DNA from: Planctomycetota bacterium
GTDB taxonomy: Bacteria > Planctomycetota > UBA1135 > GCA-002686595
Assembly (NCBI GenBank): GCA_029259595.1
Contig: JAJDEW010000058.1
Coordinates: 1-64,000 of the forward strand
Direction: 5' to 3'
Length of the DNA: 64,000 bases
Part shown: one piece after another, positions 7,404-28,827 of the stretch
How positions within the stretch are numbered: the stretch's first letter is position 1
Layout: every line of letters begins with the position of its first letter
Program-made: the position numbers and the translations under genes
The notes under the pieces: model-generated
The model's database searches: none
Seen by the model: only the letters and a program-made list of their open reading frames with translations
What the model was told of the DNA's origin: nothing

Positions 7404-9715
7404 TCGGACTGCTCGGCGGCGCGCGCCTTCTGCATCGGGTTCTTGCGCTCGGGGCGCTTGTTGAACTCGATCTTGGCCTCGACCGGCCGGCGCGGAAACT
7501 CGTTGTCGTAGAGGTCGACGTCGGCCGTCTCGCGGTGCGGGTCGAGCACGAAGCGCTCGATCACCTTGTCGCTCATGACCAACTTCGACACCTTGCGATC
7601 GTTGCGGCGCCAGATCTCGGCCGGGATCCGCAACTCGCTCGTCGAGCCGTCGTCGTAGTGCAGCTCCAGAATGACAGGCATGACCAGCCCGCCTTCGTTC
7701 ACGAGGTCCACGACGTAGAGCTTGCGGTCGAGCCCCAGGACCTCTTTCTCGTCGTCGTCCAGGTCTTCGATCAGCTTGGTGAACGACTCGCGATCCTCGT
7801 CGGTGATGTCGAGCTCGTCGTAGTCGTTGTAGAAGTCTCGCAGGCTCGGGTACGCGTCGAGACGCTTGGGCATCGAGGCGTTGCGGGCCTGGGACAAGGT
7901 GACGGGCTCGCTGTCGCGCTCGGCCTTCGCGAGCGGCCGCTCGACATCGGGATCGCGTGTGTCGATCCGGAAGAGCCGCACGCCATCGATCGAGATGTCC
8001 GTCTTGTCCGTGGTGAAGAACCAACCGTGCCAGAACCAGTCCAGATCGACGGCCGACGCGTCCTCGAGGGTTCGGAAGAGGTCGGCCGGCATCGGGCGCT
8101 TGAACATCCAACGCCGGCTGTATTCCTTGAAGGCGAAGTCGAAGAGCTCACGCCCCATCACCGTTTCGCGGAGCACGTTGAGGGCCGTCGCGGGCTTCGC
8201 GTACGCGTTCGCGCCGAACTGCAGGATCGATTCCGAGTTCGTCATGATCGGAACCTGCGCGCTCGACTCCATGTAGGACGTGATCTTCTGCGGCTCGCCG
8301 CGCCAGGAAGGATAGTCCTCTTCCCACTCCTGCTCGGCCAGGTACTGGAGGAAGGTGTTCAGTCCCTCGTCCATCCACGTCCACTGGCGCTCGTCCGAGT
8401 TGACGACCATCGGGAACCAGTTGTGCCCCACCTCGTGGATGATGACCGAGATCAGGCCGTACTTCGTCCGCGCGGAGTAGGTCCCGTCGTCCTCGGGCCG
8501 CGGGCCGTTGAAGCAGATCATCGGGTACTCCATCCCACCGACCGGGCCGTTGACGGAGATCGCGACGGGATAGGGGTAGGGAAAGGTGAACTTGGAGTAG
8601 ACGTCGAGCGTGTGCACGATCGAGTGCGTCGAGTACTTGCTCCAGAGCGGCTCGCCTTCGTTGGGGTAGTACGACATGGCCCAGACCGGGCGACCGCCTT
8701 CGACCTGGTGCAGCACCGCGTCCCAAATGAACTTGCGCGAGCTGGCGAAGGCGAAGTCGCGCACGTTCTTGGCCGCGAAGACCCAGGTCTTCGTGCCGCT
8801 GGGCGTCCCGGCCTCGTTCGCCTTGGCCTCCTCCGGAGTCACGATGAAGACGGGCTCGTCGGCCGTCTCGGCCTGCTCGAGGCGCTGGCGCCATTCGGGC
8901 TTGAGGACCTCGTCCGGGTTCTGCAAGACGCCGGTCGAGGCGACGACATGATCGTCGGGCACCGTGATCGCCACGTCGTAGTCGCCGAAGTCGAGCGTGA
9001 ACTCGCCGCGCCCCAAAAACTGCTTGTGCTGCCAACCGTTGACGTCGGTATAGGCGGCCATGCGCGGGAACCACTGCGCGATCTCGTAGAGCCAGTTGCC
9101 GTCGTCCTCGAAGTGCTCGGCCCCCGTGCGGCCGCGCACGTCGTCGGAAGCGTTGACCGTGTAGCTCCAGTCGATCCCGACCTGCGTGCTCTCTCCGGGG
9201 CGCAGCGGCTCGGCGATGTCCACGCGCATCATGGTGCCGACGATCGTATGGGGAAGCGGACCATCGTCCCCGTCGGCGACCTTGGTGATCTCGAGGCTGC
9301 CGTCGAACCGCTCCCGGGCCAGGATCGACTGGATCGTGCCGTAGCTCGGATTCGCGAGGTCGGGTGCGACCCCGGTGAGGACGGCGTGCGAGTCCGGCGC
9401 GAAGATGTTCGGATCGAGCTGCACCCAGAGGTAGCTCAGCGTGTCCGGCGAAGCGTTGTGGTAGGTGATCGACTCCGAGCCTCGGATCTTCTGCTCGCTG
9501 TCGTCGAGCTCGACGGCGATCGAATAGTCCGCGCGCTGCTGCCAGTAGCGATGGCCGGGTGCTCCCGACGCAGCCCTGTAGACGTTGGGCGTGGGCAGGA
9601 TCTCCTCGAGCTGCCGGAACTTGTCCGAACGTACTTCCGCGGTGCCGAAGGCGACTCCTACGGCGAGAAGTGAGGTGAACGGAACGGTGAGGAGGAGACG
9701 TCTGGAGGTCTTCAT
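7400..9715 (-). CDS. Exported M1-family (gluzincin) metallopeptidase
   Basis: A 771-residue zinc aminopeptidase-like protein. The start at 9715 has AGGA six bases upstream and yields a signal peptide (MKTSRRLLLTVPFTSLLAVGVAFG); an upstream open stretch to 9913 is not needed. The N-terminal beta-saddle begins with YSIAVELDDSEQKIRGSESI. The exopeptidase-type motif appears as VGGMEYP in place of GAMEN. The zinc site is HEVGH (H427, E428, H431) with the third ligand in MDEGLN (E450), the spacing expected for HExxH-18-E. A C-terminal beta-domain follows from about 620. It probably degrades peptides in the periplasm. The DinB-like gene downstream is coupled by ATGA overlap. Confidence 0.93.
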   Translation of the reverse strand: MKTSRRLLLTVPFTSLLAVGVAFGTAEVRSDKFRQLEEILPTPNVYRAASGAPGHRYWQQRADYSIAVELDDSEQKIRGSESITYHNASPDTLSYLWVQLDPNIFAPDSHAVLTGVAPDLANPSYGTIQSILARERFDGSLEITKVADGDDGPLPHTIVGTMMRVDIAEPLRPGESTQVGIDWSYTVNASDDVRGRTGAEHFEDDGNWLYEIAQWFPRMAAYTDVNGWQHKQFLGRGEFTLDFGDYDVAITVPDDHVVASTGVLQNPDEVLKPEWRQRLEQAETADEPVFIVTPEEAKANEAGTPSGTKTWVFAAKNVRDFAFASSRKFIWDAVLHQVEGGRPVWAMSYYPNEGEPLWSKYSTHSIVHTLDVYSKFTFPYPYPVAISVNGPVGGMEYPMICFNGPRPEDDGTYSARTKYGLISVIIHEVGHNWFPMVVNSDERQWTWMDEGLNTFLQYLAEQEWEEDYPSWRGEPQKITSYMESSAQVPIMTNSESILQFGANAYAKPATALNVLRETVMGRELFDFAFKEYSRRWMFKRPMPADLFRTLEDASAVDLDWFWHGWFFTTDKTDISIDGVRLFRIDTRDPDVERPLAKAERDSEPVTLSQARNASMPKRLDAYPSLRDFYNDYDELDITDEDRESFTKLIEDLDDDEKEVLGLDRKLYVVDLVNEGGLVMPVILELHYDDGSTSELRIPAEIWRRNDRKVSKLVMSDKVIERFVLDPHRETADVDLYDNEFPRRPVEAKIEFNKRPERKNPMQKARAAEQSE

Positions 9716-9947
9716 TGGCGTCCTGGCGGGCCGGGCTGGGGTCGAGGAGGGGCGGAAGATAGCACAGCCTTCCCCGCACGGCGATCCGCACGTCCCTGTG
9801 TCAAGGTTCCGTTCGAGCGAACGGGAACGAGCTTCCAGATTCGGCGCACGAACCGCCTTCGCCCGGTCTTCCCCCGGGTTTGCTTCAGCTCGACGAAGGC
9901 CCGGGGCGATCAAGCCTCGAACCCCGTCCGGAGGCCTGGATCACATC

Positions 9948-10760
9948 ATGAAATCACTTCTCTTCGCTGCCCCGCTCCTGCTCGCCGCTGTGCCCGCCAA
10001 CGGAGGGGACACGCCCGCGCTGACTCCCCACGAAAGCGTCGAAGCCGGCATCCACGCGATGCGGAACAACAAGCTGCACACCTTCCTCTTGCATACCTTC
10101 GGTGACTCGGCTGTCGCCGAGATGCGCACGGGCTGGAACAAGGAGCGCCAGAAGAAGGCCGGTGCGACCGAGTCGGCCGAGTTCACCGAATTCATCAACA
10201 AGCTGACGGCTCCGGGTGCGGAGCAGGCGCTCATGGAGGAGTTCCGGCCGCAGCTCGACGAGATGCGCCCGCAGATGACGATGATGGTCGGGATGTTCTC
10301 CGGACTCATCGGCGCCGCCCTCCAGGAAGACGAGAACCTGAGCACCGAGGAGAAGCGCAACGCCACGCAGATGATGGATGCGCTCTCACGCCACCTGATG
10401 ACGCACGACCTCTGCGATCCGCGCTCGGCCGAGAAGGCCATCGGCATCCTCTGCCGTAGCGCGCGCAAGCTGAAGCTCGAGAGCCTCCAGCAGGTTCACG
10501 ACCTCACCTTCGAAGCACTGCTCGGCAAGGGCGACATCGCCCTCGGCGCGCTTAAGGAGATCTTCGAGATCTACGGCTTCTCGATGGACCGTTGGCTCGA
10601 CTCCGTCAAAGCGGAGACCGTCCGCACCAGTGGGAGCAAGGCCACGGTCAAGGTCTCCTACGAGTTCCTGGGCATCAAGCAGTCGATGAACGCCGAGATG
10701 GTCCGGATCGGCAAGCGCTGGCTCCGCGAGGAAGCCGCCGCGATGATCGAAACGCGCTAG
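9948..10760 (+). CDS. Exported hypothetical protein
   Basis: A 270-residue protein with a short signal peptide (MKSLLFAAPLLLAAVPANGG). The mature part is mostly helical and Met/Glu-rich (HAMRNNKLHTFLLHTF, MTMMVGMFSGLIGAAL) and ends in a beta-rich segment, ATVKVSYEFLGIKQSMNAEM. I recognise no family. GGAGG at 9930-9934 is 13 bases from the start, rather far for a ribosome-binding site. An imperfect hairpin, GTTCCGTTCGAGCGAACGGGAAC (9806-9828), lies in the divergent promoter region shared with the peptidase gene. The gene is monocistronic and ends in a strong terminator. Confidence 0.8.
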   Translation: MKSLLFAAPLLLAAVPANGGDTPALTPHESVEAGIHAMRNNKLHTFLLHTFGDSAVAEMRTGWNKERQKKAGATESAEFTEFINKLTAPGAEQALMEEFRPQLDEMRPQMTMMVGMFSGLIGAALQEDENLSTEEKRNATQMMDALSRHLMTHDLCDPRSAEKAIGILCRSARKLKLESLQQVHDLTFEALLGKGDIALGALKEIFEIYGFSMDRWLDSVKAETVRTSGSKATVKVSYEFLGIKQSMNAEMVRIGKRWLREEAAAMIETR

Positions 10761-10783
10761 GCGAACAGACTCGCAGCGATCTG

Positions 10784-10822
10784 GAGCGCGGGGTGCCGAA
10801 CGGCGCCCCGCGCTCTTTTTTT
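10784..10822 (+). terminator. Strong intrinsic terminator
   Basis: A 14-bp stem (GAGCGCGGGGTGCC paired with GGCGCCCCGCGCTC, one T-G wobble) with loop GAAC is followed by seven T residues. It lies 23 bases after the stop of the exported protein gene and separates it from the ABC operon. Confidence 0.93.
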
Positions 10823-10882
10823 GGCGTCGGAGCCCCGCGGGTTCCTCGCAACGGGCGGGCGCCCAGTACGTACACTGCGCCC

Positions 10883-11833
10883 GTGCCGATCGCCCTAGAG
10901 ACCCGCTCGCTCACGAAGCGCTTTGGCGACGTCGTCGCGGTCCGCGACCTTTCCCTGCGGGTTCCGTCCGGGGAGATCTACGGGTTGCTCGGCCCCAACG
11001 GCTCGGGCAAGACGACGACCCTGGCTTGCGCCCTGGGCCTCATGCGTCCGACCGACGGGCACGCCCTCGTCCTCGGGACACCGGCGCACCGCATCGCCGA
11101 GACGCGCGGCGCCGTCAGCGTGGTCTTCGACGGTTCGGACCTGGTCGACGAGCTCTCGGCGCGCCAGAACCTCGAGTTTGCGCGCAGGCTCCTGGGACGG
11201 CCGCACGGGCGTGGCACACAGGAAGTGCTCGAGCTCGTGGGACTCACCGCGCTCGCGCGTCGCCGGGCGGCCCGGCTGTCCCTGGGCGAGCGGCGCCGGC
11301 TGGCGGTCGCACGCGCCCTGCTCGGCGACCCGCGTCTGCTCGTTCTCGACGAGCCGCTGTCCGGCCTCGACCCCGCGGGCGTCCGCACCATGCTCGCCCT
11401 GTTCCGCACGCTCGCCGGCGAGGGCCGCACGCTCTTCCTGTCCAGCCACAGGCTGCGCGAGCTGGAGACGGTGCTCACGCGCGGCGCGATCCTCAGCCAG
11501 GGCCGGCTGGCCGCGGAGGGCACGCTGGCGGAGCTCACCGGAGCCGACCGCCCCCGTTTGCGCGTCCGTGCGACCCCGCTCGAGCGGGCGCGGGAGGTGC
11601 TGTCGACACTCGAGACGCTACGCGTCGTTTCGGAAGAGCAGGACCTGCTCACGATCGAGCTCCGCAACGAGCTCGACGGTGGACTGGACGGGGCCGGCCT
11701 GAATCGCCGCCTCGTCGAAGCCGGCTGCGACGTGCACGAGCTGGCTCCTGAGCGGCGCGACCTCGCGAGCGCCTTCGACCTCTGGGTGGCCCGGGCCCGC
11801 GAGACGGACCGCCGCCAGGAGTTGCGCGCGTGA
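10883..11833 (+). CDS. ABC transporter ATP-binding protein
   Basis: A 316-residue ATPase, first gene of a five-gene operon. The GTG at 10883 is the only start that matches the domain boundary (PIALETRSLTKRFG). The motifs are complete: Walker A GPNGSGKTT, Q-loop region replaced by VVFDG, signature LSLGERRRLAVA, Walker B LLVLDEPLSGLDP and switch His in SSHRL. About 95 residues follow the ABC core, as in exporters of the CcmA/NatA type. It should power the membrane protein encoded next, overlapping by 4 bp. The substrate is unknown; the exported products of the same operon are candidate cargo or partners. Confidence 0.92.
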   Translation: MPIALETRSLTKRFGDVVAVRDLSLRVPSGEIYGLLGPNGSGKTTTLACALGLMRPTDGHALVLGTPAHRIAETRGAVSVVFDGSDLVDELSARQNLEFARRLLGRPHGRGTQEVLELVGLTALARRRAARLSLGERRRLAVARALLGDPRLLVLDEPLSGLDPAGVRTMLALFRTLAGEGRTLFLSSHRLRELETVLTRGAILSQGRLAAEGTLAELTGADRPRLRVRATPLERAREVLSTLETLRVVSEEQDLLTIELRNELDGGLDGAGLNRRLVEAGCDVHELAPERRDLASAFDLWVARARETDRRQELRA

Positions 11834-19369: not shown

Positions 19370-22300
19370 TCAGGGCGCCGACGGAAGCTCGGCTCCGATC
19401 GCGCGACGCCAGGCCGCCAGGGCGCGGGCGTGCTCGGCGCGGGCCGCCAGCTCGGCCACCTGCGCCGTCGCCAGCCGCTCCTGACGCCCCAGCTTCAGGG
19501 CCAGGAACTCGGGCGTGAGCACGCTGCGGGCCGCTTCCTCGACCAGGATCGTCCGCAGGTTCTCCGTCTCGGCCAGGCGCGTGGCCCGGGTCGCGACGAC
19601 GAGCTCGGTACGGGTCGCGACGTCCCGCAGGGCGACCTTCACCTCGGCCACGACCGTGCGAAGCGTCTCCTCGTAGGCCAGCAGGACCTGGCGCGTTTGC
19701 AAGCGTGCCTGACGCTCGGCGGCCCGACCGGCGCGCGCGCCGAAGGGCTGGGCGAGCTCGAAGCCGAGCAGGGCCGTCCATTCGTCGTCCTTCGCCAGCG
19801 AATCCAACGAATCGGAGACGGTCTCGTCGAGTCCGGCCACGGAGACGCTCGCAAAGAGGTCGACCTGGGGGCGCTTGGCGTCCGCGGCGAGCCGCTCCCG
19901 CAGCTCGGCGTCCTCGATCGCGAGCAACGCCGAGTGCACGTCCGGGCGGGCTTCGAACGCCCGGGCCAGCGCGGCCCGGACGTCGATGTCGAGCGCCTCG
20001 GGGGCCGCGTCGGTCGAGGGCATGTGGGCGGGCTCGAGCAGGATCTCGTCCGCAAGCGGGAGCTCGGGATCGTTCATGACCGACTTCAGCCGATCCGACG
20101 CGGCGCGCACGACACGGCGCGCGCGCAGGACGTCGGACTCGCGCCGACGCAGCGTCGCGAGCGCATCGGCATAGGCCGCCTGGTTGGCGTCGAAGTCGAG
20201 CCGTGCGCGCAGAACGCGCTCGACCGCGTCGCCCTGGTCCCTGAGGCGCTGGAACACGCGCAGGACGGCCCAGGACTCGACGAGGTCCTGGTAGGCGTCC
20301 TCGGTCAGCTCGCGCAGCAAGAGCGCCGCAAAAGCCAGGTCGTCGTCCGCCTTCTCGGATCGCCGCCGCGCGAGCTCGATCTCGGCCTGGTTGACGAGCG
20401 AACCGAAGCCGCGCAGCAAGGGTTGGGCGACCTCGAAGGCGAGCCCGGACTGCCACGCGGGGTCGGGCACGAAGTCGATCCCGTCCGTCCGGTTCTTCAG
20501 GCGTTCGAAGAAGGCCGAGAGCGAAACGGTCGCGCCTCCAGCGAGACGACGGCGCAGTCCGAGCCGTAGGAGCGCACGATCCTGCGCGCTGTTCGGCGTT
20601 CCGATCGTAATGCCGTTGATGACCGGCACCCGATTCGGGATGCTGGCGGTCTCGCCCTCGACCGTGCCAAAGCCCTCGGTATCGAAGGCCGCCTCGGCGA
20701 CCGTGATGCCTTCGCGATCGACGTCGGTCTGCAGGCGTGTCACTTCGAGCGCGAGATTGGAGCCGAGCGAGCGCTGTACGGCCTCCGCCACGGTCAGCGA
20801 GGCGCGCCGTTGCACGGCGCCGTCCAGGTCGCGACCGAGATCGACGTCGACGTTCCACGACGACGGTCCGCCCAGCTCCTCGAGCTCGGCCAGCCGCGGA
20901 CCGAAGGCTTCCTCGAGCTTCGAGCCTTCGTCGGCGGGCACGGGCAGGCGCTGGCCGACCTCGAGCTGAGCGAGCTCGGCCCGCAGGACGTCCGCCGCGA
21001 GCTCGCGCACGGGTGTCCGACGGGGTGCAGGTGCCCCGCACCCCGGCAAGACCAGGAGTCCGAGGACCAAGAGCGCCAAGGTCGTCCCGAAGCGGGCCGT
21101 CGTTGCTCCGCCGCGAACCATCGCATCCTCGCTCTCCTTCGACCCCGGCAAGAGGCCGAGGCGTGCCTGCACGTCGAAGGCCAGCGACAAGAGCAATGGC
21201 ACCAGCAACAAGGTGAACACCGTGGAGACCAACAGGCCTCCCACCACGACGCTGCCGAGTCCCCGATACAGCTCGGAGCCCGCCCCCGGCATGAAGATCA
21301 GCGGTGACATGCCGAGCACCGACGTCATCGTGCCCATGAAGATCGGGCGCACGCGGGTGCGCACCGCTTCGGTGATCGCGCGTTGCGGTGTCATCGGCTC
21401 GTCCGCGTGCCTCCCCTTCGCATCCCCGATGTCACCTTCGCCGCGCAGGAACTGCAGAGCCTGGTGAACGATCAGGATGGCGTTGTTCACGACGATGCCG
21501 ATCAGGATGACGAAGCCCAGCATCGTGAGCACGTCGAGGTTCTGGGCCGGCATGTAGGGATCGGACTGGCTCCAGACGTGAACGCCGTAGAGCCCCGCGA
21601 ACCCGCCGAGCGTCGCCAGCGGCACGCTGAACATGATGATCAGGGGCTGCAAGAAGCTCTGGAACAGGACGCACATCAGGAGGTAGACGACCAGCAGGGC
21701 GAGGATGAGCGAGCTTCCCAGCATGCCAGCGAGCGTCCCGTCGCCGAGCATGGCCGCCTTTACCGCGTCGAGCTTGCTGGCCGAGCCGGAGAAGCTGGTC
21801 TCGACGTCGAACGGGATCACGCCGGCCGCCCGCCCGCGCTCCAAGGTCGACTGGACGCTCGCGATCGCCGCACCGAGCGGCATCCCCGGCGGAGGCGTGA
21901 ACTGGAGACTGACCGAGCGCTGGCGTCCGGTGCGGTTGACCTGACCGGGAGCGTTGACGCGCCGCAACTCGGCCACCGCGGAGAGCGGTACGACGTCGCC
22001 ACGCGGGGTCGCCAGCGGCTGCTCACCGAGGAGGGCCAGCGGAGCGTCCGACAGTGAATCTCGTGCGACGAGCTTCAGGTCGATCGTCTGGCTGCCCACG
22101 ACGTAGTCTCCGAGGAAGGCCCCGTCGCCCAAGGCCTGCACCGCGATCCCGAGCTCGGTCGGCGTCAGACCGACCTCGCCCAAGCGCTCGAGGTTCGGAA
22201 TGATCTGCAACTCGGGCGTCGGCAAGTCGAAGTTCGACGGATCGGGCTGCAGGCTGAACGGCCCGTACTCCTGCATCATCTGCAGGAAAATGGTCTGCGC

Positions 22301-24487
22301 CGCAGCGGTCACCTGCCCGAGATCGTCGCCCGAGAAGTTGATCGCGACAGCCGAACCGCTGCGTCCGCCCAAGCGGAAGAGCGGCACCTGGAAGGCGAAG
22401 GCCATCACACCGGGCAGGACGTCCGATCGCGTCACGTGGCGGAAGAGCGGCTGCAAGTCGGCGACTCGCTCGGGCTCGGCACCGATGCCGCCGTGGAACA
22501 TCGAGCCCGGAAAGGCCACGAGGAAGTAGTTTTCGAGCGGCGGCGGGACGATCGGCGCGCCCGGACTCATCGTCGCGAAATCGAAGGTCGGGACCGGCGG
22601 CACCGCTGCCGCGGCTTCCTCGTACTCCCTCGTTCCCCGCTCGTAGTGCCCCGCCTCGAAGTAGGGCCGCATCCCCTCCTCGATCCGCAGGCCGAGCGTC
22701 TCCTGTTGCTCGACGCTCATGCCCGGCGGCGGAATGATCAAGCCGAACACGAGGTTGCGGTTGCCGACGGGCAAGTAGTCGAGCGGCGGCATCAAGAGCC
22801 AGGTCCCTGCCAAGCTCGCGGCCGTGAGCGCGACGACGATGCCGATCCGTGCCAACACGCTGCGCGAGAGCCAGCCGATCAGCCCGGCGATCGCGTCCGG
22901 GATACCCCGCAGGGGTGCCGAGAGACGCTTCAGGATCCCGCCGGGGCCGGCCTTGGACTCGACGGGGCGCAAGAGTCGCGCCGCGGCGGTCGGGATGACC
23001 GTGACGGAAACCAGCAGGCTGAGCGAAACGGCCGCGACGATGGCGAGTGCGATGTCGCGGAAGAGCTGCCCCGCCTCTTCCTCGATCAACAGGATCGGCA
23101 GGAACACGACGACCGTGGTCAAGGTCGCCGCGATGACGGCGCCGAACACTTCGCGCGTCCCGTCGTAGGCCGCCTGCATCGGCGTCTTGCCCATCTCGAG
23201 GTGTCGAAACACGTTCTCGAGCACGACGATCGCGTTGTCGACCACCATGCCGACCGCGAAGGCCATCCCGGCCAGGCTGATGACGTTCACGCTCCGACCG
23301 AGCGACACCAGGAAGACGACGGCTCCGATCACCGAGATCGGAATCGAGAGAGCGATGATGCCCGAGCTACGCAACGACCGCAGGAACAGGTACAGAACGA
23401 GGATGGCGAGCCCGCCGCCGATCCAGATATTGCTGCGAACCAGCGCGAGCGCGTCGTCGATGTAGATCGTCTGGTCGTAGACCTGTTCGAGCGTGAAGAT
23501 CCCTTCGAGCCCGCGTTGACGCGCGTAGGAGTCCAGCACGCCGCCCGGCGCGTTGAGACGGTCCACGCCTTCCTGCAGGCCGTTCATGACCTCCATGACG
23601 TTCGCGCCGACCTCGCGCTGGGCGTTGATCGCGATCACGGGCCGGCCGCGCGAACGAACGAAGCCCGTGGGCTCCTTGAACGTCTCGACGACCTCGGCCA
23701 CGTCCCTGACGTAGACGGTCCCGGCGTCGGTCTCGGCGACGAGGGTGTTCAGCACCTGCTGGACGTTCTCGTACTGGCTGACCATCCGCAGGCGCACTTC
23801 CGTGCGCGACTCGTCGAGGGCTCCAGCCGAGACGTTGTCGTTCGTGCGACGCAACGCGGCCGCGAGCGCGTCGATCGGAACGCCGACCTCGGCCAGCTGC
23901 ACGGGATCGAAGCGCACTTGCGTCTCTCGCTCGCGCCCTCCGAGGACGTTGATCTCGGACACGCCGGAGACGCGCTCGAGCGCCGGCTTGATGCGGTCTT
24001 CCGCGAAATCCTGGAGCTGGCGCACGTCGATCGCGGGGTCGGTGCAGTCGAAGACGAACCAGGCGATGAAGTCACGGTTCTCGGGGTCCGAGGCCTCGAC
24101 CACGGGCTCGTCGACGTTCTCCGGGTAGCTCGGCACCTCGCGCAGTTTGTCGCTCACCTCGCGCAGCGCGACTTCCTTCGGTGTCCCGACATCGAACTCG
24201 AGCCGGATCGAGCCCGTACCTTGCTGCAACGTGCTGGTGATCCGCTTGAGGCCGGTGATGCCCTGCAGGCGTTCCTCCTGGGGATCGACGAGGTCCTGTT
24301 CGACCTCCTGCGGGCTCGCGCCCTCCCAGCGGGTCGTGACGGCGATGATCGTGTCTTCGACGTTAGGCGTCAGCTGGATCGGGATCCGCTGTAGCGCGAG
24401 AACGCCTGCGAGGAGCACGAGCACGACGCCGACGACCACGGTCACCGGTTGACGGATGGCGGAGCGAACGGGATCCATCGTCGTCAC
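19370..24487 (-). CDS. RND efflux pump fused in frame to a TolC-like outer-membrane lipoprotein
   Basis: One uninterrupted 1705-codon frame encodes what are normally two proteins. Residues 1 to about 1105 are a complete RND permease of the HAE1 type: first membrane segment after IRQPVTVVVG, porter domains, the TM4 motif AVGMVVDNAIVVLEN (D417 followed by N418, not the usual Asp pair), and a C-terminal LLLVPLLLSLAFDV helix. Residues 1123-1705 are an outer-membrane efflux (TolC-type) protein. They begin at an internal Met, with their own lipoprotein signal (LLVLGLLVLPGCGAP, Cys about 1150) and the OMF pattern ASLTVAEAVQRSLGSNLALEV. Either this is a real fusion, with the lipoprotein signal acting as a thirteenth membrane helix that places the OMF in the periplasm, or the second half is made separately from the ATG at 21121. 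The upstream gene encodes the adaptor protein. Confidence 0.88.
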   Translation of the reverse strand: MTTMDPVRSAIRQPVTVVVGVVLVLLAGVLALQRIPIQLTPNVEDTIIAVTTRWEGASPQEVEQDLVDPQEERLQGITGLKRITSTLQQGTGSIRLEFDVGTPKEVALREVSDKLREVPSYPENVDEPVVEASDPENRDFIAWFVFDCTDPAIDVRQLQDFAEDRIKPALERVSGVSEINVLGGRERETQVRFDPVQLAEVGVPIDALAAALRRTNDNVSAGALDESRTEVRLRMVSQYENVQQVLNTLVAETDAGTVYVRDVAEVVETFKEPTGFVRSRGRPVIAINAQREVGANVMEVMNGLQEGVDRLNAPGGVLDSYARQRGLEGIFTLEQVYDQTIYIDDALALVRSNIWIGGGLAILVLYLFLRSLRSSGIIALSIPISVIGAVVFLVSLGRSVNVISLAGMAFAVGMVVDNAIVVLENVFRHLEMGKTPMQAAYDGTREVFGAVIAATLTTVVVFLPILLIEEEAGQLFRDIALAIVAAVSLSLLVSVTVIPTAAARLLRPVESKAGPGGILKRLSAPLRGIPDAIAGLIGWLSRSVLARIGIVVALTAASLAGTWLLMPPLDYLPVGNRNLVFGLIIPPPGMSVEQQETLGLRIEEGMRPYFEAGHYERGTREYEEAAAAVPPVPTFDFATMSPGAPIVPPPLENYFLVAFPGSMFHGGIGAEPERVADLQPLFRHVTRSDVLPGVMAFAFQVPLFRLGGRSGSAVAINFSGDDLGQVTAAAQTIFLQMMQEYGPFSLQPDPSNFDLPTPELQIIPNLERLGEVGLTPTELGIAVQALGDGAFLGDYVVGSQTIDLKLVARDSLSDAPLALLGEQPLATPRGDVVPLSAVAELRRVNAPGQVNRTGRQRSVSLQFTPPPGMPLGAAIASVQSTLERGRAAGVIPFDVETSFSGSASKLDAVKAAMLGDGTLAGMLGSSLILALLVVYLLMCVLFQSFLQPLIIMFSVPLATLGGFAGLYGVHVWSQSDPYMPAQNLDVLTMLGFVILIGIVVNNAILIVHQALQFLRGEGDIGDAKGRHADEPMTPQRAITEAVRTRVRPIFMGTMTSVLGMSPLIFMPGAGSELYRGLGSVVVGGLLVSTVFTLLLVPLLLSLAFDVQARLGLLPGSKESEDAMVRGGATTARFGTTLALLVLGLLVLPGCGAPAPRRTPVRELAADVLRAELAQLEVGQRLPVPADEGSKLEEAFGPRLAELEELGGPSSWNVDVDLGRDLDGAVQRRASLTVAEAVQRSLGSNLALEVTRLQTDVDREGITVAEAAFDTEGFGTVEGETASIPNRVPVINGITIGTPNSAQDRALLRLGLRRRLAGGATVSLSAFFERLKNRTDGIDFVPDPAWQSGLAFEVAQPLLRGFGSLVNQAEIELARRRSEKADDDLAFAALLLRELTEDAYQDLVESWAVLRVFQRLRDQGDAVERVLRARLDFDANQAAYADALATLRRRESDVLRARRVVRAASDRLKSVMNDPELPLADEILLEPAHMPSTDAAPEALDIDVRAALARAFEARPDVHSALLAIEDAELRERLAADAKRPQVDLFASVSVAGLDETVSDSLDSLAKDDEWTALLGFELAQPFGARAGRAAERQARLQTRQVLLAYEETLRTVVAEVKVALRDVATRTELVVATRATRLAETENLRTILVEEAARSVLTPEFLALKLGRQERLATAQVAELAARAEHARALAAWRRAIGAELPSAP
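21127..21139 (-). promoter_or_regulatory. Possible internal ribosome-binding site for the TolC half
   Basis: Reading on the minus strand, AAGGAG (21139-21134) and GAGG (21130-21127) precede the in-frame ATG at 21121 by 12 and 5 bases. This is where a separate outer-membrane factor gene would be expected to start. It would permit independent translation of the C-terminal 583 residues. Confidence 0.5.
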
Positions 24488-25641
24488 TCCCCGCTCGTCA
24501 CGCCGGAGTCAGCGGTCGGGACGGCGTCGATCGGTTGGACGGGCGCCATCGGATAGAGCCGTTGCTTGCCCTCCACGATCGCGGCGTCGCCCGCCTTCAG
24601 GGGACCGCGGACGACGGCACGCCCGCCCTCGCGCCACAGCACCTCGACCTGCACCGGACGAGCGTTCCAAGGACTGCCTTCGGTGCCCGGGACGGCCACG
24701 AAGAGATAGGGACCGAGCTCGTTCTGCAGCAGCGCGTCCACCGCGACCGTCTTGTGATCGGCTCGCTCGGCGATCGGGACCCAGGCCACGGCCGACATGC
24801 CGGGCGCGAGCGCCGGGTTCGGCGCCAGCGAAGCGATGACCGTCAGCATGCGCGCCCCCGGATCGACGTCCGGAACGACGCGCCACAGCTCCGACTCGAA
24901 GGCGGACGTACCGGCGGCGGCGGTCACGGACAGCGGTCCCTTGGGAACACGCAACGCGGCGAGGTGACGCTGGGGCACCTCGACCCAGACCTCGAGCTCG
25001 TCGGAGACCAGCTCGGCCACGGAACTCCCGGCCGCCAGCCATTCCCCGGCTTCGACCGCGACCGACGCGATCGTGCCTGCGAAGGGGGCGTGCACTTCGG
25101 TGTCGGCCACGCGATCGACGAGCAGCTTCGTTCGCTCCACGAGGACGGCACGCTCCTGCTCGGCCTGTGCAAGCCGCGCTTGCGCCTCGGCCACGGCCGT
25201 CTCGGCGTCCGCGAGCTCCTTGGCGTTCGTGGCGTCGCGCTCCACGAGGCGTCGCACGGCTTCGAGGTCGCGATGCTCCTGGGTCAAGGCATGGCCGCGC
25301 TCGTCCACGAGCGCCTCGGCTACGGCCGTTTGCGCCGTCAGGACCGAGAGCTCGAGCTCGAGCCGGGTCGCGTCGATCCGCGCGAGCACGGCCCCGCGCT
25401 CCACGCGAGTGCCCTCGTCCACCAACAGCTCGACGATGCGGCCGGCCTCCTCGCCTGCCACGTGGGACCGACGGGCCGCACGCAGCTCACCGTTCGCGAA
25501 GCGTCGATCTTGGAGGGAAGCGATCTGCACGGGGTCGGTCCGGACCATCGAGGGCTGCCCCTGCAGAGGGGGCGGGACGGCGACGGTCGCAGGCGCGGCG
25601 AGGACAGGAGAGAGAGAGAGGAAGACGGAGAGCAAAGTCAT
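24484..25641 (-). CDS. RND efflux membrane-fusion (periplasmic adaptor) protein
   Basis: A 385-residue adaptor that would join the RND pump to its outer-membrane channel. The signal peptide is MTLLSVFLSLSPVLAAPA. Order of domains: barrel-sandwich first half (AGEEAGRIVELLVDEGTRVERGAVLARID), an alpha-helical hairpin at about 105-170 (Ala/Glu-rich), barrel-sandwich second half (VHAPFAGTIASVAVEAGEWLAAG), then beta-barrel and membrane-proximal parts. Its stop overlaps the pump gene start by 4 bp (24484-24487), so the system is one transcription unit. The drug or metal exported cannot be predicted. Confidence 0.92.
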   Translation of the reverse strand: MTLLSVFLSLSPVLAAPATVAVPPPLQGQPSMVRTDPVQIASLQDRRFANGELRAARRSHVAGEEAGRIVELLVDEGTRVERGAVLARIDATRLELELSVLTAQTAVAEALVDERGHALTQEHRDLEAVRRLVERDATNAKELADAETAVAEAQARLAQAEQERAVLVERTKLLVDRVADTEVHAPFAGTIASVAVEAGEWLAAGSSVAELVSDELEVWVEVPQRHLAALRVPKGPLSVTAAAGTSAFESELWRVVPDVDPGARMLTVIASLAPNPALAPGMSAVAWVPIAERADHKTVAVDALLQNELGPYLFVAVPGTEGSPWNARPVQVEVLWREGGRAVVRGPLKAGDAAIVEGKQRLYPMAPVQPIDAVPTADSGVTSGE

Positions 25642-26034: not shown

Positions 26035-28827
26035 TCAGCGGCGGAGAGTCAGGTGGAACGGTTCCGCGGAGCTTCCCGCGCTCACGGAGACTGACGTTCC
26101 GAGCGGTTGACCGCCGTTTTCGAGGGACCAGGTCGCCCCGTTGCAGACGGCCGCGTAGAGCGCGTTCGTGTCGTCGACGATCAGGGCCAAGAGCCGGTTC
26201 TCGTTCGGCACCGCGAAGGCCTCGGCGAACTGGATCTCACCGATGCCGGCGAGCAGCGTGTCGGGCTGGATGGTCCAGCCTCCCGAGGTGTAGAGCGCCC
26301 AGTCGAAGCCCGGTCCGTCGATTCCGCGCCAGAGGATGACCGCCTGACCGGAATTGCCGAGCCACCCGACGATGAGATCGCGCTGGTTCAAGACGCTGTT
26401 CAGGTCCATCTCGGCGATGTTCCCCCAGGCGTTCCCGTCCCAGATCATGCCGACCGTGTCGTCCTGGAACGTGCCTTCGCACACGCCGGCGACGATGCGA
26501 TTGGAGATCGGATCCGGCACGAGCCGGAAGACCGCACCGACCGCGTCCGTGCTGTGCGCTTGAGCCACCGACCACACGCCGGTACCGGCGGCGCGCGTCG
26601 CGTAGCGTGTCTCCTCGATCAGGTTCGTGTGACCGTAGGCCACGAGCAGGTCGCCGGACAGCGTCTCATAGGCTGCGTCGTAGGCCTTCGACTCGGTCGT
26701 CGTGATGATCTGCGTGTCGAGGAGTTGACCGGCGTCCCAGCTCGTGCCGTCCCAGATCCTCGTCACGAGATTCTGGTCCGCGTCGAGCGTCACGAGCGCG
26801 AGCTCGTTGGTTCCGGGTCGGGACACGAGCTCGACCCATAGGATTGCCCCGGTCGAGATCGGAGCTCCGGTGACCGCGGCCTCGGCGCTCCAGGTCCCGT
26901 CGAAGGTCTGGAAGATCGGAACGTTGGAGCCGTCGGTGAAGACCAACATGATCTCGCCCGAAGAGTCCTCGAAGGCCAGGTCGAAGCCGCGCTGATCTGC
27001 GCTGGAAGAAGGGATGCGGCCGACGAGCGCCGTGTCCGCGTCGTAGTCCGTCCACTGGGCACCGTCATAGGTCCGGACGACGAGGTCGGTCTGAACGCCG
27101 TCGTCGGACAGGACCGCGATGATCTCCTGCGCATTGGCGAGCGGCGAAACCTCGCTGACGACCCACTTGATGCGGGCGTTCGCTCCTACGGTGCGAGTCG
27201 TGCTGGTCGCCCATTGCCGCGTCGTGCCGTTGCGCGAGCGGCTGAAGACCCGTGCGTCATCGTCGCGGCCGAAGAAGACGCGCGAATCGAGCAGCGAGAG
27301 CGGGGCCGTCTCGTCCAAGGCCGCCGGCACGTGAGCGCCGAGGTTCAGGACGTCGCCATCCGCGCCGTCTCCCTCGACCACACCGGTCGCGATCGTGATC
27401 CAGTTCGTCAGGGCGCCGCCGTACCGCAGGTAGCGCGTCGAAGCGGTCGCATCGCCGCTGTCCAGGCTAGGGCTGAGGGCGCTGACCCGGAAGTCGTCGT
27501 CCGCGCCCTGGGCTCCGCCCAGGAAGCCGTCCGCCCCGTTGGGATTCTGGTAGATCGGGGAGGCGCTGCCACTCGGTCCGGACTCGACGCCGCTGTTGCC
27601 GTAGGTCAGCTCGAGCCCACCGTTCCCGAAGACCAGGTTGGTGGTCTCGGTCAGCGGCGAGCCTGTCGCGAGCCGAATCCCGTTGGCGATGCCCGAAGTG
27701 ACGAGGCTGTTCGTGATGGCGCCCGTGTTGGTCGCCACTTCCTCGCGGATCTGATCGCCCCCGTTGAGATAGAACGTGCACAGATCGATCGCGAGGTTCG
27801 TGCACCCGCCGGTGATCTGCACTCCGTAGCGCCCGTTGTTGTAGACGAACGTATTGACCAGCGTGAAGTCGGTCGTATCCGTCACGGACAGGCCGTCGGA
27901 GCCCACGCCGAGGTTGTTCGAGATTCGGTTGCTCTCGACCAGGACGCGCGTCGCGCCTTCGCTCAGGATTCCGAGCGTGTTGCCATAGATCGAGTTCTCG
28001 AGCAGGGCGACGTCGCTCGCCCCGTCGACCCAAATCCCCGCTCCCGTGGCGGTCGGCATCGCACCGATGATCTGGAAGCCGCGCAGGGTGACGAAGTCCG
28101 AGCCGTTCAGATGGAAGGCGAAGTCGCCGCCGGCCGCATCGACGAGGACGGTTCCGGCGTCGCCCGTGAAGCGCCCCTCCGGATCCGCACGGAAGACGAT
28201 CGGGTCGACCGCGGTACCGGAGACCGTGAGCTCGGCAGCCTCGGTGTAGGTGCCTCCACCGACGAAAACGGTCTGGCCGGGGCTGACCTGGGTGGCCGCG
28301 AACGTAATCGTGGCCCAGGCGTCGGCCGGGCTCGTGCCGGTGTTCGCGTCGGAACCGCCGGTGCGGACGAAGCGACCGCCCGCGGGCAGGTTCACGAATT
28401 CGGTCGTGGCGGTCTGGACCACCGGGACCGTGCCGGTCGTCGTGATGATCGTCGCGGTGATCGAGTGGACCCCGGGCACGGCGGAGCGCAGCGTCCCTGT
28501 CGCCACGCCGAGCGCATCGGTCAGCGCGGCAGGCTGCGTCAGCGTTCCGCCGACGCCGGTGGCAGCGAGCTGGACGAACTGACCGGCGACGACATCGCCG
28601 GCCGTATCGCGCACCGTCACCGTGATCGTGACGAGAGCCGCGCCGTTGGCCGCGGTTCCGAAGGTCGAGCTGACGTCGAGGGTCGAATTGGTCCCGCTGA
28701 TGGCCGGACCACCGCCGCCGCCACCGCCGCCGCCACCCCCTCCACCGCCGCCGCCTCCGCAGGCGGGAACGAGGGTCAGTCCCAGGGCGAGGAAAATGGA
28801 CGAGACGGTCCTTTGAAGGGAATTCAA
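26035..28827 (-). CDS. Large lipoprotein: poly-Gly linker, Ig-like domain, beta-helix, C-terminal propeller-like region
   Basis: A 930-residue exported lipoprotein. The start is a TTG at 28827 with GGAG seven bases upstream. Signal: MNSLQRTVSSIFLALGLTLVPAC with lipobox VPAC. Immediately after the Cys come 17 consecutive glycines, a flexible tether. Residues about 50-145 form a bacterial Ig-like (Big_1/invasin) domain (TLDVSSTFGTAANGAALVTITVTVRDTAGD region). Residues about 155-480 form a right-handed parallel beta-helix of the DUF1565/PbH1 type (RFVRTGGSDANTGTSPADAW, then repeated N-x-I-x-x-N turns). The rest consists of repeated strand motifs such as VTRIWDGTSWDAG and VGMIWDGNAWGN that suggest a propeller. 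It is probably a cell-surface glycan-binding or polysaccharide-acting protein; no catalytic residues could be assigned. Confidence 0.85.
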   Translation of the reverse strand: MNSLQRTVSSIFLALGLTLVPACGGGGGGGGGGGGGGGGGPAISGTNSTLDVSSTFGTAANGAALVTITVTVRDTAGDVVAGQFVQLAATGVGGTLTQPAALTDALGVATGTLRSAVPGVHSITATIITTTGTVPVVQTATTEFVNLPAGGRFVRTGGSDANTGTSPADAWATITFAATQVSPGQTVFVGGGTYTEAAELTVSGTAVDPIVFRADPEGRFTGDAGTVLVDAAGGDFAFHLNGSDFVTLRGFQIIGAMPTATGAGIWVDGASDVALLENSIYGNTLGILSEGATRVLVESNRISNNLGVGSDGLSVTDTTDFTLVNTFVYNNGRYGVQITGGCTNLAIDLCTFYLNGGDQIREEVATNTGAITNSLVTSGIANGIRLATGSPLTETTNLVFGNGGLELTYGNSGVESGPSGSASPIYQNPNGADGFLGGAQGADDDFRVSALSPSLDSGDATASTRYLRYGGALTNWITIATGVVEGDGADGDVLNLGAHVPAALDETAPLSLLDSRVFFGRDDDARVFSRSRNGTTRQWATSTTRTVGANARIKWVVSEVSPLANAQEIIAVLSDDGVQTDLVVRTYDGAQWTDYDADTALVGRIPSSSADQRGFDLAFEDSSGEIMLVFTDGSNVPIFQTFDGTWSAEAAVTGAPISTGAILWVELVSRPGTNELALVTLDADQNLVTRIWDGTSWDAGQLLDTQIITTTESKAYDAAYETLSGDLLVAYGHTNLIEETRYATRAAGTGVWSVAQAHSTDAVGAVFRLVPDPISNRIVAGVCEGTFQDDTVGMIWDGNAWGNIAEMDLNSVLNQRDLIVGWLGNSGQAVILWRGIDGPGFDWALYTSGGWTIQPDTLLAGIGEIQFAEAFAVPNENRLLALIVDDTNALYAAVCNGATWSLENGGQPLGTSVSVSAGSSAEPFHLTLRR
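28708..28758 (-). repeat. Trinucleotide tract encoding 17 glycines
   Basis: Seventeen consecutive GGN codons, mostly GGC and GGT with some GGA/GGG, lie directly after the lipobox Cys codon of the lipoprotein gene. The mixed codons suggest selection for glycine, not only slippage, but the tract may vary in length between strains. Confidence 0.9.

Follow-up and report, generated by a model that had tools for sequence, protein, structure and literature searches.

Tripartite efflux pumps of the HAE type, such as MdtABC-TolC, MexAB-OprM and AcrAB-TolC, are built from an RND permease, a periplasmic adaptor and an outer-membrane factor (OMF), the RND and the OMF being separate proteins. RND proteins have 12 membrane helices, and their N- and C-termini both lie in the cytoplasm. 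The planctomycete DNA analyzed here, a stretch of 64,000 nucleotides (contig JAJDEW010000058.1) referred to below as the window, encodes the same three components, but its RND permease and its OMF, which folds like TolC and OprM, share one reading frame. An earlier note on this DNA had pointed out that no stop separates the RND C-terminus, at about residue 1105, from an OMF with its own lipoprotein signal, and had offered two alternatives, a true fusion or two products obtained through an internal start. The locus raises the questions of whether the joint is real and of which mature proteins the gene specifies.

One reading frame for permease and channel

The frame is open through all of its 1705 codons (Table 1), as the earlier note had read it, and Pfam recognizes ACR_tran from residue 8 and OEP at residues 1505-1698. 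ACR_tran homology extends over the full length of the RND part (E 3e-185), which has 12 membrane helices in two repeats, as judged from hydropathy peaks and from the alignment with MdtB, the nearest solved structure (PDB 9lyq, E 2.6e-82). The best match in the NCBIfam library is NF033617 for multidrug RND permeases, with 555.6 bits, under its curated cut-off of 1250; the CusA/CzcA model TIGR00914 scores 276.8 bits, under its curated cut-off of 701. The canonical proton-relay residues of AcrB, Asp407, Asp408 and Lys940, do not recur as a set in any of the fusions that cover these sites: TM4 reads VVDN, with one Asp (residues 417-418 in the window), and TM10 reads VNNAILIV, with no Lys (residues 1001-1002). 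Judged from these motifs, energy coupling in the fused RND may differ from that of AcrB.

The OMF part matches OEP with 39.1 bits against a cut-off of 22. An AlphaFold model of the C-terminal 623 residues has the strand-helix topology of OMFs, with the OMF part well modelled (mean pLDDT 74.7), and Foldseek searches of the PDB match it to TolC (E 1.8e-15), OprN, OprM and CusC, down to about 1e-12. The adaptor gene lies directly upstream of the fused gene and overlaps the RND start in the sequence GTGA. This position is conserved in the relatives, and in four of their genomes a TetR-type regulator, its family assigned by eye, stands upstream of the adaptor. Further along the minus strand of the window, positions 26035-28827 encode a putative lipoprotein whose mature N-terminus, after the Cys, is a stretch of some 17 glycines interrupted by one PA pair.

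Table 1. Features of the fused gene and its neighbour in the window
Feature	Positions	Strand	Remarks
RND-OMF fused ORF	19370..24487	-	1705 aa; GTG start, later ATG at residue 4; orthologous fused frames in relatives
RND permease part, residues 1-1104, HAE/MdtB-like	21176..24487	-	Pfam ACR_tran; NF033617; PDB MdtB 9lyq
Linker after helix 12, residues 1105-1134, predicted cytoplasmic; variable in length and sequence	21086..21175	-	
Hydrophobic segment 13, predicted h-region of internal lipoprotein signal, residues 1135-1149, ends LPG	21041..21085	-	Hydropathy; model helix
Lipobox Cys1150, where Lgt is predicted to lipidate and Lsp to cut	21038..21040	-	Cys in 11 of 11 fusions
OMF part, residues 1150-1705, TolC/OprM-type outer-membrane channel	19373..21040	-	Pfam OEP; AlphaFold and Foldseek
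Internal ATG, unconserved	21119..21121	-	Linker comparison among fusions
Periplasmic adaptor (MFP) gene, completes tripartite pump	24484..25641	-	TIGR01730 above cut-off; HlyD families

The window's contig comes from a draft assembly that is fragmented into 186 contigs, a circumstance that favours the notion of an assembly or sequencing artefact having deleted a stop. A first search of 61 genomes returned full-length, stop-free products from four genera besides the window's own and an incomplete one from another genus, at 56-63% identity. A single-protein query in the first scan of named genomes gave no match; the second scan of named records found the joint in the complete chromosome of an isolate, Planctomycetes bacterium Pla163 (CP036290.1), and in several MAGs, and a search of the phylum added one more fusion, on a contig that starts within the RND part (L217). 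The joint is present in one frame in 11 genomes, the window's included, from six family-level planctomycete lineages. The linker between helix 12 and the Cys varies fast, from 46 to 75 residues in length, and in every case the frame is preserved, so that the joint is neither a product of chance nor a frame error. The earlier note had proposed looking for the same joint in relatives, and had held that a frame error in the assembly, or relatives with a stop codon at the joint, would undo the fusion. The joint was found in frame in ten other genomes and a stop in none of the 11 fusions; since independent assemblies, including the closed Pla163 chromosome, share it, assembly error is excluded for the fusion as such, with a residual probability that is practically nil. 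The in-frame RND-OMF fusion is therefore real.

In a tree of RND sequences the fused genes group together with one unfused member (L119) nested inside, several forks being weakly supported; the tree points to an apparent single origin of the planctomycete fusion, followed by what looks like one loss of the OMF. At the unfused locus (8001-11372) a stop lies 18 codons past the RND, and no OMF is present within 5 kb. At one contig end (JAUIEE010000156.1; L094/L053) the RND frame continues into a sequence that resembles, by eye, a TRAP-transporter membrane subunit; this is probably a chimeric end. Other long RND frames of the window's genome (1441 and 1197 aa) were considered as further fusions and rejected, their length being due to upstream read-through only, with no OMF. 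The same genome carries a tandem pair of RND genes, whose frames are open over 1197 and 1882 aa (G000:C42:44638-51557).

The internal signal and the source of the channel

Past the last RND helix the hydropathy plot has an extra segment at residues 1136-1154, and the AlphaFold model places a helix just ahead of the Cys, at model residues 47-62, where its confidence is <50 to 55. In an alignment of six fusions, no residue between Leu1102 and Leu1202 is invariant except Gly1134, Gly1149 and Cys1150. All 11 fusions have a hydrophobic stretch ending in Cys, with Gly, Ala or Ser just before it, and in all 11 the elements of a lipoprotein signal, a positive n-region, a hydrophobic h-region and a lipobox Cys, are present in an internal position, the n-region being weakly positive in several. 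Cysteine is otherwise nearly absent from these proteins: those of Pla163 and L109 each have just two among about 1700 residues, the lipobox Cys and one other. The earlier note had placed a lipoprotein signal here with its Cys at about residue 1150, which is correct to the residue, and had suggested that the signal could act as a thirteenth helix with the OMF in the periplasm. Hydropathy, alignment and model together support the view that segment 13 is placed to do so.

The window's genome encodes both lspA and lgt. Among 21 lipoproteins from about 460 kb of this genome, one has an N-terminal LPGC box like that of the fusion, and four have Pro at position -2. Given these enzymes and these lipoboxes, lipidation by Lgt and a cut by Lsp at Cys1150 would be expected.

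OMFs that match a profile of the fused OMF occur in 147 of the 154 genomes of the window's class, the best unfused one with E about 1e-55, and the stand-alone OMFs of the class that were inspected have signal-peptidase-I signals and no Cys. These OMFs were considered as the source of the fused one and set aside, because they form a different subfamily; the true sister group consists of lipoproteins. A profile search of the whole phylum found closer kin in stand-alone OMF genes of other Planctomycetota (E 1e-70 to 1e-178), which overturned the idea that the subfamily exists only in fused form. At 19 such loci (L216 and L218-L235; E 1e-91 to 1e-158) the unfused OMF belongs to the same subfamily and has a lipobox Cys equivalent to Cys1150, but its lipoprotein signal is N-terminal, in 19 of 19, and it is encoded by a separate gene that does not adjoin an RND. 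In the stretches of 9-19 kb around these loci no RND or adaptor of the fusion's family was found. An RND homologue is present in 17 of 23 genomes searched, the fused G400 being one of the 23, and stands apart from the OMF gene in 16, the two lying about 14 kb apart in G478. Since these unfused kin carry an N-terminal lipoprotein signal and have their genes at a distance from the pump, the fusion took in the gene of an OMF lipoprotein, signal peptide included. It brought together two genes that normally stand apart and whose products presumably cooperate.

Parallel fusions in Bacteroidota

The earlier note had described RND, adaptor and OMF as normally separate proteins. Taken as a rule without exception this is too strong, since fusions of CusA/CzcA with an OMF are common in public records from Bacteroidota plasmids, where about 40 records cover nearly the whole query. 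These proteins (for example WP_079466130.1 and WP_013931245.1, about 1436-1482 aa) are annotated as 'CusA/CzcA family heavy metal efflux RND transporter'. We checked the architecture by Pfam in two of them and examined the joint in 19. Like the planctomycete fusions, they combine ACR_tran and a C-terminal OEP in a single frame and have an internal, signal-peptide-like helix 13. In 19 of 19 an Ala-Gln or Ser-Gln pair lies no more than a few residues past the hydrophobic segment; these fusions are related to one another, and the 19 do not represent 19 independent events. In the OMF parts, Ala, Gly or Ser followed by Gln starts at about 2.3% of positions; by our own estimate, which ignores relatedness, such a pair would therefore occur by chance within a dozen residues in about one sequence in four. 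A Gln directly after the cut marks signal-peptidase-I substrates in Bacteroidetes, the Q-rule (Bochtler et al., PMC5837995).

The two groups differ in that the Bacteroidota fusions have a heavy-metal RND (TIGR00914), an adaptor gene downstream and a putative signal-peptidase-I site with Gln at +1, whereas the planctomycete fusions have an RND of another family, the adaptor upstream and a lipobox. Since RND family and gene order differ, and the phylum as well, the two most likely arose separately. A split version is found on a plasmid of Hymenobacter sp. BRD128 (NZ_CP053910.1; L170), in which the genes for the RND and a TolC family protein lie in different frames and overlap by 37 bases; this OMF has its own signal peptide.

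Neither RND-OMF fusions nor internal lipoboxes turned up as a described subject in our searches of the open literature, most subscription papers lying outside their reach. Excerpts of a 2016 survey (PMC4827864) describe outer-membrane pore proteins as rarely fused to other domains and name no RND case. The RND-OMF architecture itself is already in public records; what is new in the planctomycete form is the RND family and the internal lipobox.

A predicted polyprotein, its alternatives and its meaning

We consider it probable that the gene encodes an RND-OMF polyprotein that is cleaved by signal peptidase into an RND of 13 helices and a separate OMF. Translation would yield a 12-helix RND whose C-terminal tail leads into the internal lipoprotein signal peptide, which would insert as a thirteenth helix, N-in/C-out, and take the OMF across the inner membrane. 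Cys1150 would then be lipidated by Lgt, and signal peptidase II (Lsp) would cleave just before it, leaving the signal peptide on the RND as helix 13 and releasing the OMF as a free lipoprotein to be sorted to the outer membrane. RND and OMF would be made 1:1, a possible advantage that fits the 3:3 ratio of known tripartite pumps, and would assemble with the separately encoded adaptor. There is a precedent in the cytochrome b/c1 precursor of Bradyrhizobium japonicum (fbcH), a polytopic protein with an internal signal peptide at which signal peptidase cuts it into two subunits; that case involves signal peptidase I and a respiratory complex, and no lipidation.

If the fusion were never cut, helix 13 would be a permanent tether in a single chain of 180 kDa, and the approximately 100 residues after Cys1150 would bridge the periplasm to the OMF barrel. 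The single frame and the topology of segment 13 suit this reading, and the segment between Cys and OMF, variable in sequence, is long enough to make a tether possible; the retained Cys could also serve lipidation or packing without cleavage. A tether, however, requires neither an invariant Cys nor the Ala-Gln or Ser-Gln retained in Bacteroidota, the cell has lspA and lgt, and the relatives of the OMF are normal lipoproteins of the outer-membrane type, so that we regard an uncut chain as unlikely. We give still less credit to two products arising by initiation at the ATG at 21121, the absent stop being incidental. This ATG is indeed preceded by Shine-Dalgarno-like sequences (AAGGAG..GAGG), as the earlier note had observed, but only the window has it. 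In L078 and L109 the stretch from helix 12 to the hydrophobic core of segment 13 contains no ATG, GTG or TTG: the sole candidate start of L078 is a TTG within that core, and L109 has start codons inside helix 12 only. This rules out a second start as the general mechanism. Separate starts would moreover predict stops or frame changes in the fast-varying linker, and the 11 genomes have none. Of the two alternatives in the earlier note, the in-frame fusion stands and the internal start is disfavoured, and the evidence favours a third, translation as one chain followed by cleavage at the lipobox.

Extended to both phyla, the cleavage reading becomes somewhat less secure, and we lean towards it: RND-OMF fusions would be convergent membrane polyproteins cut at an internal signal, by signal peptidase II in planctomycetes and by signal peptidase I in Bacteroidota, each yielding a 13-helix RND and a stoichiometric OMF. 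This polyprotein reading would be the surprising part, if proven. It predicts a rarely considered activity of Lgt and Lsp on a signal deep within a polytopic protein, some 1150 residues in, and implies that many entries named only 'CusA/CzcA RND transporter' encode two mature proteins. For a tripartite pump, whose parts a cell has to balance and match across two membranes, a polyprotein with a conserved internal signal would be a direct answer, at which two separate lineages would have arrived. The fusion suggests that the cell produces pump and channel as one chain, and so in equal numbers, and separates them afterwards by cleavage.
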